Source: Vulgatibacter incomptus
Lineage (GTDB): Bacteria > Myxococcota > Myxococcia > Myxococcales > Vulgatibacteraceae
Direction of reading: 5' to 3'
DNA: 64,000 nucleotides
Assembly (NCBI RefSeq): GCF_001263175.1
Contig: NZ_CP012332.1
Span: 3,988,220-4,052,219 of the forward strand
The position numbers and the translations under genes were made by a program. Under the pieces are notes generated by a model that did not search any database, was not told where the DNA came from, and was given only the letters and a program-made list of their open reading frames with translations. This document shows positions 31,276 to 37,046 of the stretch, piece by piece (the stretch's first letter is position 1; each line of letters starts with the position of its first letter).

Positions 31276-34200
31276 ATGCGCCCAACACGCTTCCTCGAAT
31301 CCGTGGCTGCGGTCTTCCTCCTCCTCCTGTCCGCCGGTTGCGGTGACGGCGGCTCGAAGGACCCGAACGATTCTTGCCGCGGCGTCGTCTGCAAGGCAGG
31401 CCAGGACTGCCGGGCCGGCGTCTGCGTCGATCGCGAGGATCCCGGCCACGAGGGCTGCCAGTCGAACAACGACTGCCAGTTCGATCCGAGGGGGAAGCTG
31501 TGCGAGCGCGACACCGGCCGATGCGTGGCCTGTCTCGACGACAACCACTGTCCCGCCGGAAGGACCTGCGAGGTCGGCCTCTGCGTGGGGACGGTCTGCA
31601 CCACCGACACGGACTGTGAAGCGCCCACGCCGCGCTGCAGCGCCGATGGTGCGGCATGTGTCGCTTGCCTCGGCGCCGGCGACTGCGGCGAGGGCGAGCG
31701 TTGCGACGCCGGCGCCTGTGTGCCGGACCGCGTCGTTTGTGAAGGCGACGAGGACTGTCGGGACCCGGCGCATCCCTTCTGTGCGTCGAACGGCGACTGC
31801 GTCGCCTGCCGCCTCGGGGACGATTGCCCCGCGGGCCAGAACTGCGTCGACGGCTCGTGCGAGCCTCCCGCGGGCTGCACCTCCGATCGCGACTGCGAGT
31901 CGAGCCCGAACGGCCCCCTCTGCGATCGTGCCACCGGCGCGTGTGTGGTCTGCCTCGACGACTCGAGCTGCGGCCTTGGCGAGCGCTGTGTGGGCCACGC
32001 GGCTTGCGAGCCCATGAGCTGCGACGGACCCGCCGCGTGCCCGCCCGGCGCGATCTGCGAGGCGGACGGCTGCCATGCCATCGGCCCCTGTGCCTCGGAC
32101 GCCGACTGCGCCGCCGACCCGCGGGTGCCCCACTGTGGCCCGGGCTCGGCCTGCGTGGAGTGCGTCGGGGCGAGCGACTGCGGCTCCGGGCGGAGCTGCG
32201 TCGCGGGTGCTTGCCGCATCGACTCTCCGTGCTCCTCGGACGCCCAGTGCAAGGGCGGCTTCGCGTGCGTCGACGGAGCGTGCCTCTCGTGCCGCACCGA
32301 CGACCAGTGCGCGCGCGGCGTCTGCGCCGCCGGGACCTGCGCGGATCTCCCGACCTGCTCGACCGACTCCGACTGCGCGAAGGGCGTCTGCGCGGGCGGC
32401 GCCTGCCGCGAGTGCGGCAGCGATCTCGACTGCAGGGCAGGTCTCTGGTGCGAGGCCGGCGCGTGCACGGAGCTGCCGGGTTGCGACTCCGACGCCGCGT
32501 GCACGATGGGCCGGATCTGCGCGGGCGGCGCCTGCGAGCCCACCGCTTGTGCGGGCGACGCCGCCGGTCCGTCCGCGGCGCGGGCCGTCGGCCTGGGCGC
32601 GCCCGTCGCCAGGACCGTCTGTGCGAACGGCGAGGACTGGCTGGCCTTCTCCGCGGGAGCGGGCTCGCCCCTCGACGTCTCGGTCCTCTCCGCTCCGCCC
32701 GGTCTCGACTTCTCGCTGGTGTGGTTCGAGCCGGGCCCGGAGCGGGTGCGCCGCGAGCAGCGGGCGATCGACCAGCGCCTGATGATCAAGGCCCTGCCGA
32801 CGGCGGCGGCGCGCCGCTACTTCCTCCGGGTCACCGGCGATGTCGGGGGCGACTACGTCGTGCTGCCCAAGGCGGCCTTCACCGCCTGCACCGACCCGCT
32901 CTCTCCCAGCGACAGCGTCGCCAATGCGCGCAACCTGCCGGCGAACACCTGGTTCGACGGGCTGACCGCGTGTAGCGGCCGCTTCTACTCGGTCGATGTG
33001 CCCGCCAACCACGCGCTCTCGGCCTACGCCTTCCTCGCCGACGGCGACGCGCAGGTCGCGCTCTTCAACGCGGATGGCTCCAGCCTGTCCGGGGTGCGCA
33101 CCTCTACCGTCAGCTACCTCGGGGGCGGGCGGCTCGCGGAGTGGGACGGGTCCCCTGCCGCGACCCGCGTGATCGTGCGGGTCACTCCGCGGACGCCGCA
33201 GCCCTCCAGCGTTCGCCTCTACTTCGCGACCTCGGAGAGGCTCGCGTGCGGGAATTCGCCGCTCCTCCTCGATGGCCGGGCGGATCGGGCGCGCGCCGAC
33301 GGGACCAACCTCGCCGAGCGGCTCGGCGCCCGCAACCTTTGCGGCGACCCGGGCCGCGAGCGGTCGTTCGCCCTGCGCTTCGACGACGACGCCCGCCTCG
33401 TCGCCCGGGTGGGGGCTCCCTTCGGCGCCGTCCTCTCGCTCCGCGACGCCGCCTGCTCCGGCACGATGTCCTGCATCGCCGCCGTCCAGGGCGTCGGCGT
33501 GCTGGATCTGCCCAGGGTGGCGCGAGGCGACTACGTGCTCACGGTCGGCGGCGCTGGCGACCAGGCTGGACCCTTCGATCTGGCCCTGAGGCGGGTGCCC
33601 GTGATCGATCCGCCCGCCAACGATCGCTGCGGCGACGGCGCGGCGCTCACCCTCGGGCCGGCGACCGTCACCGTCCAGGGCTCCACCGAGGGGGCTTCGC
33701 CGTCCGGCGGCGCGCTCTGCGATCCTCTCTCGCCCGACGTGTTCTACTCGTTCACCGTCGACCGGCCGTCCCGCCTCGTCGCCGAGGTCCGGGGCAGCGC
33801 CCCGTTGAGCCTCTCCCTCGTGGACGCGGGCTGCGCGCCCGAGTCGCCGTGCCCGGCCCCCGGCACCACCCAGCGCCTCGATCGGCAGGTGAGCGCGGGG
33901 ACGCATCAGCTCCGCGTCGCTTCCACCACCGGCGTCGCGGCGACCTTCACGCTGCGCGCCACGCTGCCGGCCGTGGTCGCGAACGATCGCTGCGATGACG
34001 CGACCTCGCTCGCGATCCCGCAGACGGTGACCGGCGACACCACGTGGGCCACCAACACCCTCTCGTTCCCGCTCGCCCAGAGCTGCACGGGCTACTACAC
34101 CGACGGAAACGACGTCTTCTACTCCGTGAACCTCACGGCAGGGCGGACCTTCACCGCGACTCTCACGCCAAGTGCGGGATACGACCCGGCACTCTACGTG

Positions 34201-34359
34201 GTCGGCTCCTGCGCCGCGCCGCAGTGCCTGGCGGGCGTCGACGTTCCCGGCGCCGGCGTCCCAGAGACGCTGCGCTTCACTCCCACCGCCACCGGCACCT
34301 ACCACCTGGTTGTAAGCGGCGCGGCCGGCGGCGGCCCCTTCACCCTCCACGTGGAGTAG
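31276..34359 (+). CDS. large Cys-rich lipoprotein with C-terminal beta-sandwich domains
   Basis: A 1027-residue lipoprotein (lipobox LLLSAGC, Cys22). Residues 30-430 contain at least ten Cys-knot modules with recurring C-x(4-6)-D-C and C-x(2-3)-C spacing, such as CVACLDDNHCPAGRTC. The remaining 600 residues are beta-rich and carry repeated PPC-like motifs: YFLRVTGDVGGDYVV, then the paired FYSVDVPA and FYSVNLTAGRTFTATL segments. The architecture resembles the Cys-rich/PPC gene of the divergent operon, scaled up. It follows glnA by about 110 bases and may have its own promoter. Function unknown; surface binding is the likeliest role. Confidence 0.82.
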   Translation: MRPTRFLESVAAVFLLLLSAGCGDGGSKDPNDSCRGVVCKAGQDCRAGVCVDREDPGHEGCQSNNDCQFDPRGKLCERDTGRCVACLDDNHCPAGRTCEVGLCVGTVCTTDTDCEAPTPRCSADGAACVACLGAGDCGEGERCDAGACVPDRVVCEGDEDCRDPAHPFCASNGDCVACRLGDDCPAGQNCVDGSCEPPAGCTSDRDCESSPNGPLCDRATGACVVCLDDSSCGLGERCVGHAACEPMSCDGPAACPPGAICEADGCHAIGPCASDADCAADPRVPHCGPGSACVECVGASDCGSGRSCVAGACRIDSPCSSDAQCKGGFACVDGACLSCRTDDQCARGVCAAGTCADLPTCSTDSDCAKGVCAGGACRECGSDLDCRAGLWCEAGACTELPGCDSDAACTMGRICAGGACEPTACAGDAAGPSAARAVGLGAPVARTVCANGEDWLAFSAGAGSPLDVSVLSAPPGLDFSLVWFEPGPERVRREQRAIDQRLMIKALPTAAARRYFLRVTGDVGGDYVVLPKAAFTACTDPLSPSDSVANARNLPANTWFDGLTACSGRFYSVDVPANHALSAYAFLADGDAQVALFNADGSSLSGVRTSTVSYLGGGRLAEWDGSPAATRVIVRVTPRTPQPSSVRLYFATSERLACGNSPLLLDGRADRARADGTNLAERLGARNLCGDPGRERSFALRFDDDARLVARVGAPFGAVLSLRDAACSGTMSCIAAVQGVGVLDLPRVARGDYVLTVGGAGDQAGPFDLALRRVPVIDPPANDRCGDGAALTLGPATVTVQGSTEGASPSGGALCDPLSPDVFYSFTVDRPSRLVAEVRGSAPLSLSLVDAGCAPESPCPAPGTTQRLDRQVSAGTHQLRVASTTGVAATFTLRATLPAVVANDRCDDATSLAIPQTVTGDTTWATNTLSFPLAQSCTGYYTDGNDVFYSVNLTAGRTFTATLTPSAGYDPALYVVGSCAAPQCLAGVDVPGAGVPETLRFTPTATGTYHLVVSGAAGGGPFTLHVE

Positions 34360-34378: not shown

Positions 34379-34404
34379 GAGCGAGGGTTTACGAGCCCTC
34401 GCTC
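34379..34404. terminator. hairpin shared by the Cys-rich lipoprotein and fic
   Basis: GAGCGAGGG (34379-34387) pairs perfectly with CCCTCGCTC (34396-34404). It starts 20 bases after the lipoprotein stop and overlaps the end of fic, so it could stop transcription in either direction. Confidence 0.6.
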
Positions 34405-35923
34405 TCCATGATCCCCGGGTGGAGCGTACGCTCTTGCCGGATCGCCTCCTGAACGGAGCGCTCGAGCCTCCGAATCTCGTCGTCGTCGAGCTCGGAGAAC
34501 GTGGATCGCTTCGTGTTGGAGAGACGACCGCCGTTCTGCATGCAGAGGCGAACGAAGAGGGTAGCCCTTCGATCCGGCATGTCGACGATCTCGCGAACGC
34601 CGGCGAGGGCCCGGTCGAAGACCGCGACGTAACCCAGCTCCTCGGCGAGGTCGTGCCGAACCGTGTCGACTACGCGGTCGTACAGGTACTCGGCGAGCGC
34701 GGTGGCGTCAAAATACCGATAGAGGTGGGCGGTCTCGTTCTCGACCACCAGCTCGGTCTCGTCGTCGAAGTGCCAGTCGATGAACTCGAAGAGCGGCTTC
34801 GAGAAGCTCTCGAGCGCTTCGTCGTAGAGATGCCGGCTCCGAACGATCGACGCGGAGACGGGAAAGACGATGCCGGGCGGGCTGAATCCGCGGCGAGCGA
34901 GGACGCTGTGGATGAGGAATCGGTGAAGGCGCCCGTTTCCGTCTTCGAAGGGATGGATGAACACGAAGGCGAAGGCGATCGCCGCCGCCGCGATAACCGG
35001 GTCGACATCGGACCCGATCAGCCGCTGCGCCATCGCCATCCAGGCGGTAATGAGCTGCGGGACATCCCCGGGCCTGGGGCAGATGAAGTGGAGCTTTTCG
35101 CGGTAACCGCTGATCGTCTCTCCCACGAAGTTCTGGTGGTCCCGCCAGTCCAGGGATGCATACCGGGACTCCACGATCTGGCGCTGCAGGTCGACGAACG
35201 AGGCCTTGTCGCCAAGGTCGAAATTGGGAGCGTCACGGAGAGAGGCGACGAATCGCTCCGCACGGTTCGGGCTCGGGCTCTCCCCCTCGATCGCGAACGA
35301 GGACCGGGTCTCTTTTGTGTATAAATAGCTTACTGCGCGTGACAGGGTCGTCTGGTCGAAGCCCGCGACGAGGCGTTTGGCCTCCTCGTCCGTCCGGGCC
35401 GCCGCATGCTCGGCGAGCCGAGCGGTCCGCCGAACGGACACGCACATCCCGGCACCACCGAGCAGGTTGTCGATCACCCGATGGCGGGGGGAGTTGCGCC
35501 TCTCGGCCACGAATTCGAGGTCGGGATTCAGCGCGGGAACGTAACTCCCCGCCGAAACGTCATCGAGCTCCAACCTCGTCCCGGTGAGGGTTTCGTATAG
35601 GAACCACGCTCTCCGGCTGTAGGCTCCAGTCGGCTCGCTCCGGACCCACGCCTCGATCTCCGCGGGATCGATCTTGCGAAAGGCTGCCGCCAGCACGCGA
35701 AGGTCGAGAGGCTCGTAGCGGAGCGCGAATCGGAGGTCGTCGGCATTGGATCCGTCGGTTTGGTAGCTCCGCGGATACCACTCGACCGTCCGCCCGTCCG
35801 GGAAGACCTCGGTTCGGCGCGTGCCCGCGATCGAGTAGCTCTCGACGGCCGGGGGGGAACCCGAAGCTCGAGGCGGCGGAGGAGCGCCGCCTGTCCCATC
35901 GGGACGTTAGTGAGCTTGTCCAA
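34389..35923 (-). CDS. Fic-domain AMP-transferase, frameshifted at a G7 tract near its 5' end
   Basis: The downstream frame (from an internal GTG at 35696) gives 435 residues with the Fic motif HPFEDGNGRLHR (near 34920-34956) and, about 100 residues earlier, an SxxAIEG inhibitory motif (SSFAIEGE), i.e. a class II Fic protein controlled by its own N-terminal helix. Such enzymes transfer AMP to target hydroxyls. The likely start is TTG 35923, with GAGGTGG at good spacing. Its frame encodes a Fic-like beginning (TNVPMGQAALLRRLELRVPP) but shifts at seven Gs (35851-35857). One more G would continue with PAVESYSIAGTRRTEV into the Fic frame. The gene is either broken, phase-variable or misread. Confidence 0.8.
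35851..35857 (-). repeat. G7 homopolymer that breaks the fic frame
   Basis: Seven consecutive G (C on the coding strand). Eight would keep the gene in frame. Such runs change length easily by slipped-strand copying. Confidence 0.75.
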
Positions 35924-35935
35924 GTGCCACCTCGG

Positions 35936-36307
35936 TGCAGAATCGATGACTCACGATCAGAAACGATGAGAATAACCTGATCTGGAGAAAATTCGATGAG
36001 ATCTAAGGCGGGTCGATCGGCCGGCCCCTCGATAGGGGGGCGAGCCTACTTGGGACGGAGCTGCGAAAGAGATTAGCCGGTCTTTCTCGGGACGGAATCG
36101 ATGACTGGGATGGAAAAATGAAGATGGAAGCGGCTCCAGGAACTGAATCGATGACCGGAGTGGAGGCGCGATGACGAAGGCGCCCTTCGGTGCGGAATCG
36201 ATGACCGGGGTGGGAAATCGATGACGAACGCGGCCTTTGGTGCGGAATCGATGACCGGGGTGGGAAATCGATGACGAACGCGGCCTTTGGTACGGAATCG
36301 ATGACCG
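35936..36307. repeat. array of ~50-bp tandem repeats carrying AATCGATGAC decamers
   Basis: Units begin near 35936, 35986, 36041, 36091, 36141, 36191 and 36241, with a partial unit at 36291; a five-base G insertion separates the second and third. Each unit has two AATCGATGAC-type decamers, 20 and then 30 bases apart. Exact decamers lie at 35941, 36096, 36146, 36196, 36216, 36246, 36266 and 36296; decayed ones occur at the predicted places (35961, 35991, 36166). Units 36191 and 36241 are identical; copies fade towards fic. The array fills the gap between fic and livF, contains no gene, and has a core ATCGAT palindrome. Confidence 0.88.
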
Positions 36308-36320
36308 AGCGATCGATCGT

Positions 36321-37046
36321 TCAGCCGCCGAGGTAGGCGCGGCGGACGTCGGGGGAGGCGAGGAGGTCGCTGCCTCCGCCCTCCATGACGATGCGGCCGG
36401 TCTCGAGGACGTAGGCGCGGTTGGCGAGCTGCAGGGCCTTGGCGGCGTTCTGCTCGACCAGCAGCATCGCCACGCCGTCCGCGTTCACGCCGCGGAGGAT
36501 GTCGAAGATCTGCTCCACGATCCGGGGGGCGAGGCCGAGGGAGGGCTCGTCGAGGAGGAGGAGCCCGGGGCGGCTCATCAGGGCCCGGGCGATGGCGAGC
36601 ATCTGCTGCTCGCCGCCGGAGAGGGTGCCGGCGACCTGTGCGCGCCGCTCCCGCAGGCGGGGGAAGAGCGCGAAGGAGCGCTCGAGGTCCGCCTCGATGC
36701 CCGACGGATCGCGACGCAGGAACGCGCCCATCCGGAGGTTCTCGGTGACCGTGAGGTTGAGGAAGATCCCCCGTCCCTCGGGCGCGTGGGCGAGGCCCTT
36801 CGGCACGAGCTCGTGGGCCTTCCGGCCGGTGACCTCCTCGCTGCGGAGCCTGATGCTCCCGGACGACGGCGCGATCATGCCGGAGATGGCGCGGAGCGTG
36901 GTGCTCTTGCCCGCGCCGTTAGCGCCGATGAGAGCGACGATCTCCCCGGGGCGGACCTCGAGCGAGACGCCGTGGAGTGCCCGGATCGCGCCGTATGAAA
37001 CGTGCAGCCCGTCGACTCGGAGCAGGGCAGCGTCAAGGTGGCTCAT
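36321..37046 (-). CDS. livF: branched-chain amino-acid ABC transporter ATPase LivF
   Basis: A 241-residue ATPase of the HAAT family, shorter than LivG as usual for LivF. Walker A (GANGAGKST), the signature (LSGGEQQMLAIARAL) and Walker B (LLLLDEPSLGL) are intact. It uses ATP to drive uptake with LivG, LivH, LivM and LivK. Its start overlaps the livG stop by ATGA. The tandem repeats begin 14 bases beyond its stop. Confidence 0.96.
   Translation of the reverse strand: MSHLDAALLRVDGLHVSYGAIRALHGVSLEVRPGEIVALIGANGAGKSTTLRAISGMIAPSSGSIRLRSEEVTGRKAHELVPKGLAHAPEGRGIFLNLTVTENLRMGAFLRRDPSGIEADLERSFALFPRLRERRAQVAGTLSGGEQQMLAIARALMSRPGLLLLDEPSLGLAPRIVEQIFDILRGVNADGVAMLLVEQNAAKALQLANRAYVLETGRIVMEGGGSDLLASPDVRRAYLGG

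Follow-up and report, generated by a model that had tools for sequence, protein, structure and literature searches.

The gap between livF and fic in Vulgatibacter incomptus is filled by an array of short sites that belongs to a conserved ladder upstream of fic genes of the PDC-S24 family. The ladder keeps spacings of 20, 30 and 50 bp across phyla, and within the array the sites are kept over the spacers. The most probable interpretation, to which we assign a probability of about 60 %, is a family-specific operator array that is bound by Fic itself to control its own expression. An operator array is the best explanation because the sites point in the same direction, are confined to the region upstream of one gene family and cross phyla while the neighbouring genes change. 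Since the neighbours of fic vary between loci, with none constant among those sampled, only fic can carry a specific binder.

Structure of the array in the livF-fic gap

The window, a stretch of 64,000 nucleotides of the single-contig genome, was annotated as summarized in Table 1. The gap contains eight exact copies of the decamer AATCGATGAC, all on the forward strand, which confirms the count of the earlier note. Its description of about seven units of 50 bp, however, has to be replaced by an uneven arrangement. Going from livF to fic, a half unit is followed by two near-identical units (49/50 bases), two decaying units, a step of 105 bp without clear sites and a proximal triad. A period of 50 was assigned to positions 36145-36307 by TRF. 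The observation that copies at the livF end are identical and those at the fic end have drifted holds almost to the base, and the livF-side units are recent copies. The arrangement of a CRISPR array, with unique spacers between constant repeats, was not found, as the intact units share their spacers as well as their decamers, which had also been recognized before.

Table 1. Positions of fic, livF and the sites between them in the window; single numbers under Remarks are start positions of decamers unless stated otherwise
Feature	Position	Strand	Remarks
fic, PDC-S24 candidate phage-defence gene	34389..35923	-	likely start TTG 35923
Whole site array	35936..36307	- (sense relative to fic)	spans the entire livF-fic gap
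Site 1, exact decamer	35941..35950	-	17 bp upstream of the likely fic TTG start; final site of the proximal triad
Site 2, AAACGATGAG, 8/10	35961..35970	-	proximal triad; site 1 at 20 bp
Site 3, ATTCGATGAG, 8/10	35991..36000	-	proximal triad; site 2 at 30 bp
Decaying 50-bp unit	36096..36145	-	exact decamer 36096; second site 36116 lost (6/10)
Decaying 50-bp unit	36146..36195	-	exact decamer 36146; second site 36166 GCGCGATGAC lost (7/10)
Intact 50-bp unit	36196..36245	-	decamers 36196 and 36216
Intact 50-bp unit	36246..36295	-	decamers 36246 and 36266; 1 base differs from the 36196 unit
Half unit, last exact decamer	36296..36305	-	livF stop codon about 15 bp away
livF	36321..37046	-	neighbour upstream of fic on the same strand; array boundary

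The proximal triad shows which parts of the array were retained. Its three decamers keep 26 of 30 bases, whereas the spacers match at 8 of 30 (Fisher p 4.8e-6), and site 3 overlaps the strongest match of the family motif in the gap (35984). As the decamers were kept while the spacers were randomised, the array cannot be regarded as a neutral minisatellite. Growth by slippage in this gap would account for the near-identity of the livF-side units and the decay towards fic, and a Myxococcota relative described below also has its own recent 50-bp copies. Nevertheless, the old copies keep decamers and not spacers, and the same grid occurs with other sequences in relatives across phyla. A mobile minisatellite, which had been proposed as one possible role, is therefore already contradicted as the main explanation, and we attach next to no probability to it.

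Two further geometric claims apply in a restricted form. The palindromic core ATCGAT is present locally, but the motif of the family is asymmetric and all sites face fic. Likewise, the sites were thought to face nearly the same side of the helix. At 10.5 bp per turn, each step of 50 bp rotates the sites by about 86 degrees around the helix, and this arrangement is therefore limited to neighbouring sites.

The decamer is rare in the genome. The 4.35-Mb sequence contains 10 exact copies, all on one strand, of which 8 are in the array and the remaining 2 are solitary and located in other sequence. A pair of decamers spaced by 20 bp is found nowhere else in this genome. Because the decamers are almost confined to the livF-fic gap, the array is not a dispersed repeat family of the Vulgatibacter incomptus genome. 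The exact pair is also absent from the other 194 Myxococcota genomes searched. Among 84,980 species genomes, one match was found, in Streptomyces, where 20 bp are duplicated at a start codon. Neither a search for the exact pair in viral contigs nor a similarity search of the array in plasmids and phages returned matches, since the motif varies between species and only the grid is common. Relaxed TCGATGAC pairs in relatives turned out to be isolated and dispersed and were rejected as arrays.

The fic gene and the PDC-S24 family

The listed open reading frame of fic (34389-35696, start GTG 35696) covers positions 71-492 of the 497 positions of the PADLOC profile PDC-S24 with an E-value of 2.4e-161, and it scores 536 bits with this profile compared to 73 bits with the SoFic profile. 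The N-terminal part of about 70 residues that is present in relatives lies upstream of this frame, partly in another one. The N-termini of homologues match frame -3 at 35902-35831 and then, starting at about 35852, frame -2. The break in the frame is thus close to the seven consecutive G at 35851-35857. Intact relatives exist, and the break may be a sequencing error, a phase-variable tract or decay. Judging from the sequence, the start is likely the TTG at 35923 behind GAGGTGG, in which case the array occupies the entire gap. With the N-terminus located upstream, the match to the PADLOC profile is full-length, and the gene is a member of PDC-S24, the phage defence candidate PDLC04966 of PADLOC and a Fic-domain single-gene system. 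Its anti-phage role is thus that of a candidate. It is fair to say that no named family matches the array, as had been stated, but the gene behind it does have a name.

The Pfam Fic domain was detected with an E-value of 1e-15. The protein carries both signatures of a class II Fic AMPylase, HPFx[DE]GNGR as HPFEDGNGR and the N-terminal inhibitory motif [ST]xxxE[GN] as SFAIEG. The residues H248, D252-R256, S133 and E137 are invariant or nearly so in the alignment of relatives.

Relatives of this fic gene were found in 23 of 195 Myxococcota genomes at an E-value of 1e-40 or better, with the own genome counted, and also in 259 plasmid records and in viral contigs, which together make up the sampling outside the Myxococcota. 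All 25 aligned relatives and four distant ones are PDC-S24. The gene contexts differ. On a Deinococcus psychrotolerans plasmid (L071, 387-5239), fic is flanked by the type I restriction genes hsdS and hsdR. On a Bosea plasmid (L073), it is near a DNA cytosine methyltransferase gene. Upstream of the latter fic gene, site-like repeats occur in both orientations and may also serve the other direction. Another relative, with one in-frame stop within the match, lies beside a CRISPR-like array with a 36-nt repeat and spacers of about 35 nt (L030:119-1081). In the window itself, a 1027-aa Cys-rich protein of secreted type with many repeated Cys segments is encoded downstream of fic on the opposite strand (31276-34359).

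Conservation and geometry of the ladder

Repeated short motifs are present in nearly all upstream regions of the other fic relatives. Repeated sites of about 11 bp are found directly upstream of fic on the sense strand in Myxococcota, Alpha- and Gammaproteobacteria, Deinococcota and viral contigs, and most ladder-bearing loci share the motif AAnCGWTTTY. Blind motif finding in 34 relatives without the own locus returned this motif (LL 377). When the own locus was included, blind expectation-maximisation yielded LL gains of 375-428, compared to at most 153 in shuffles; several of the Myxococcota loci are close relatives and not independent. The motif trained on the outside loci ranks positions on the sense strand of the gap at 3, 28, 32, 34, 40, 41, 50, 51, 65, 80 and 83 among the roughly 128,000 positions of the window, with 0 as the top rank. 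The density of sites is 14.0 per kb on the sense strand and 3.6 on the antisense strand in the 250 bp upstream of fic, whose annotated starts vary between loci, and falls to 1.0-1.3 within genes and at more distant upstream positions. Diverged sites escape the motif caller, and at its threshold only four sites of the own array were called.

The spacing played no part in training the motif model. Over 40 loci, 77 of 105 successive spacings are 20, 30 or 50 bp (+-1), and 33 loci have a pair on this grid. Shuffled sequences gave a mean of 3 grid spacings and a mean of 2.8 loci with a grid pair (maximum 6). Self-similarity, which requires no motif, was calculated for 37 upstream regions, leaving out the own array and one relative with tandem copies (L026), and showed lags of 50, 30 and 20 at z 11.0, 9.7 and 9.2, with all others below 3. 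In eight fresh plasmid loci the top three lags are 20, 50 and 30, and likewise in the four most distant of them. Upstream of 57 other Fic genes, nothing was found at lags of 20, 30 or 50. Only 12 of 83 spacings in 72 regions of other Fic genes are on the grid, versus 56 of 75 for PDC-S24 (Fisher p 6e-15). The own locus follows the same rule, with the family motif on the sense strand upstream of fic spaced by 20, 30 and 50 bp.

Individual loci illustrate this geometry. Two viral contigs that were outside the training set have spacings of 30-20-20-31-30-20-30 (L081) and 30-20-29-20 (L082). Two very distant relatives (L083 and L084, about 33 % identical) have the same grid with a different motif around GTAAGAAAAAGTG, and in the second the sites lie at -153, -133, -103, -73, -53 and -23. 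The relative L026, a Myxococcota locus with 47 % identity, also has a tandem array of 50-bp period before its fic gene, but the repeated sequence is another one. A recent expansion of identical 50-bp site pairs is visible there (L026:880-1114). An initial assignment of its sites as inverted repeats was dropped, as they are same-sense sites with a near-palindromic core. In four loci (L066, L071, L077 and L082), the last site of the ladder begins at -11 from the start codon, which leaves no room for a usual ribosome-binding site, and a leaderless fic transcript is possible. A protein bound to this site would block the start of transcription or translation.

Operator model and alternative explanations

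In the proposed model, the short direct-repeat sites facing fic, which extend away from the start codon at fixed steps of 20 and 30 bp, would form the operator region. The Fic protein would bind them as an oligomer via parts outside its catalytic core and would control, most likely repress, its own promoter. Such repression may hold down the level of a toxic defence protein of the AMPylase type until the complex is disturbed by infection. Further sites would have been added at the livF end when pairs of sites were recently duplicated in tandem as 50-bp units. The earlier note had suggested several roles, of which cooperative protein binding for fic is supported by the conservation of the 20/30 grid upstream of this Fic family across phyla. 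The combination of the same grid with a different motif in L083 and L084 would be expected of a protein and a site that evolve jointly. A Mantel test for such coevolution gave an r of 0.013 (p 0.42) for pairs below 65 % identity, and a correlation was seen only through close relatives. A scan for sigma-70-type promoters recognised none. The interrupted frame of the own fic gene is a point against the model.

The identity of the binder is the less certain part. No DNA-binding domain was proved in Fic, for which profiles from Pfam and PDB match the Fic core alone, and a model of the full protein matched Fic proteins only. The AlphaFold model of the N-terminal part is confident mainly for four helices (residues 62-116 of the relative on the viral contig L081). 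Its single weak fold match, without a sequence match, is the DNA-binding antitoxin Rv2827c (1zel, E 0.14), which makes a parallel to Rv2827c and AbiEi for the Fic N-terminus a lead. The ladder could instead be bound by a host factor, such as a nucleoid protein or a global regulator. In addition to the lack of a proved domain, this would fit sites that are AT-rich relative to their genomes and contain T-tracts in many cases. Yet the grid is identical in Myxococcota, Alpha- and Gammaproteobacteria, Deinococcota and viral contigs despite differing motifs, it is absent before other Fic genes, where a general factor could equally act, and the decamer is almost confined to the livF-fic gap in its own genome. 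We therefore consider a host factor unlikely, though it is the closest competitor of the operator model. The suggestion of an iteron-like or nucleoid-associated site is unsupported, because the ladder travels with a single gene family. T-rich cores on a near-helical grid could also bend the DNA upstream of the promoter as phased T/A-tracts, so that a specific protein would be unnecessary. In single-letter analyses, T alone does peak at 20, 30 and 50. However, G and C letters alone peak at 20, 50 and 30 as well, and T-tract curvature is therefore not the full explanation. Moreover, the own sites (ATCGATTCC and ATCGATTTCC) contain just 2-3 T, and CG is common in the motif, which makes bending by itself very improbable.

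Another possibility is that the repeats function at the RNA level. Type III toxin-antitoxin systems such as ToxIN combine an RNase toxin with an antitoxin that is a structured RNA made of the repeats. The array resembles them in its tandem repeats, all in sense orientation, directly upstream of a toxin-like defence gene, and a leader or small RNA could accordingly bind and restrain Fic. This is weakened by 12 leaders without excess structure (mean z -0.29), by the absence of an Rfam match for the array and of terminator-like hairpins, by the +-1 precision of the 20/30/50 spacing, which resembles the phasing of a DNA helix, and by the last site abutting the start codon at -11 in several loci. 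In addition, the toxin has a Fic fold and is not an RNase of the ToxN, CptN or TenpN type. An RNA-based mechanism thus appears quite unlikely, and binding by the Fic protein is retained as the preferred reading.

Comparison with known systems

Autoregulated defence genes with ordered operators are known, among them the type IV toxin-antitoxin system AbiE. The antitoxins AbiEi and Rv2827c repress their own promoters by cooperative binding to several ordered repeats (PMC7319586). The likeness consists of a defence-linked gene with ordered promoter repeats that are bound by its own protein, which in PDC-S24 is a prediction. AbiEi sites, however, consist of 23-bp inverted repeats with 3 or 13 bp between them and are bound by a separate antitoxin (PMC7319586), whereas the sites of the PDC-S24 ladder are short, directly repeated and set at 20/30-bp steps, without a conserved second gene. 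A separate DUF1814 nucleotidyltransferase gene, as in AbiE, was not found among the annotated neighbours of the relatives. In Phd-Doc, operator sites also control a Fic-fold toxin, but these are palindromic and bound by the separate antitoxin Phd (PMC13034048), in contrast to the direct repeats of the ladder. SoFic is a single-gene Fic defence, an abortive-infection AMPylase, whose control is attributed to a small downstream antitoxin (PMC12249575). It shares with PDC-S24 the class II organisation with a cis inhibitory motif, but it belongs to another family by profile score, and no promoter ladder is described for it (PMC12249575).

In a more far-reaching version of the operator model, a single gene would make up the whole system, with the toxin repressing itself while bound to DNA. 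On the ladder, Fic oligomers would be both silencing and catalytically restrained, so that the ladder acts as the antitoxin, and a phage attack on host DNA or transcription would release the toxin. This extension is speculative and we regard it as unlikely in its complete form. How single-gene Fic defence proteins are silenced and released is a question raised in PMC12249575.

No paper naming PDC-S24 or describing repeats upstream of Fic genes was found in the open-licence papers searched, and the PADLOC entry describes the protein only. The ladder is present upstream of most members examined. Both its layout of direct repeats at 20/30-bp steps and its association with a Fic family of single-gene type appear to be new. 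An uncharacterised candidate defence family thereby gains a conserved control element whose exact geometry recurs in several phyla, on plasmids and in viral contigs. From the ladder, the PDC-S24 protein is predicted to bind DNA in a defined oligomeric arrangement, and the ladder can serve as a marker for finding members of the family and their start codons.
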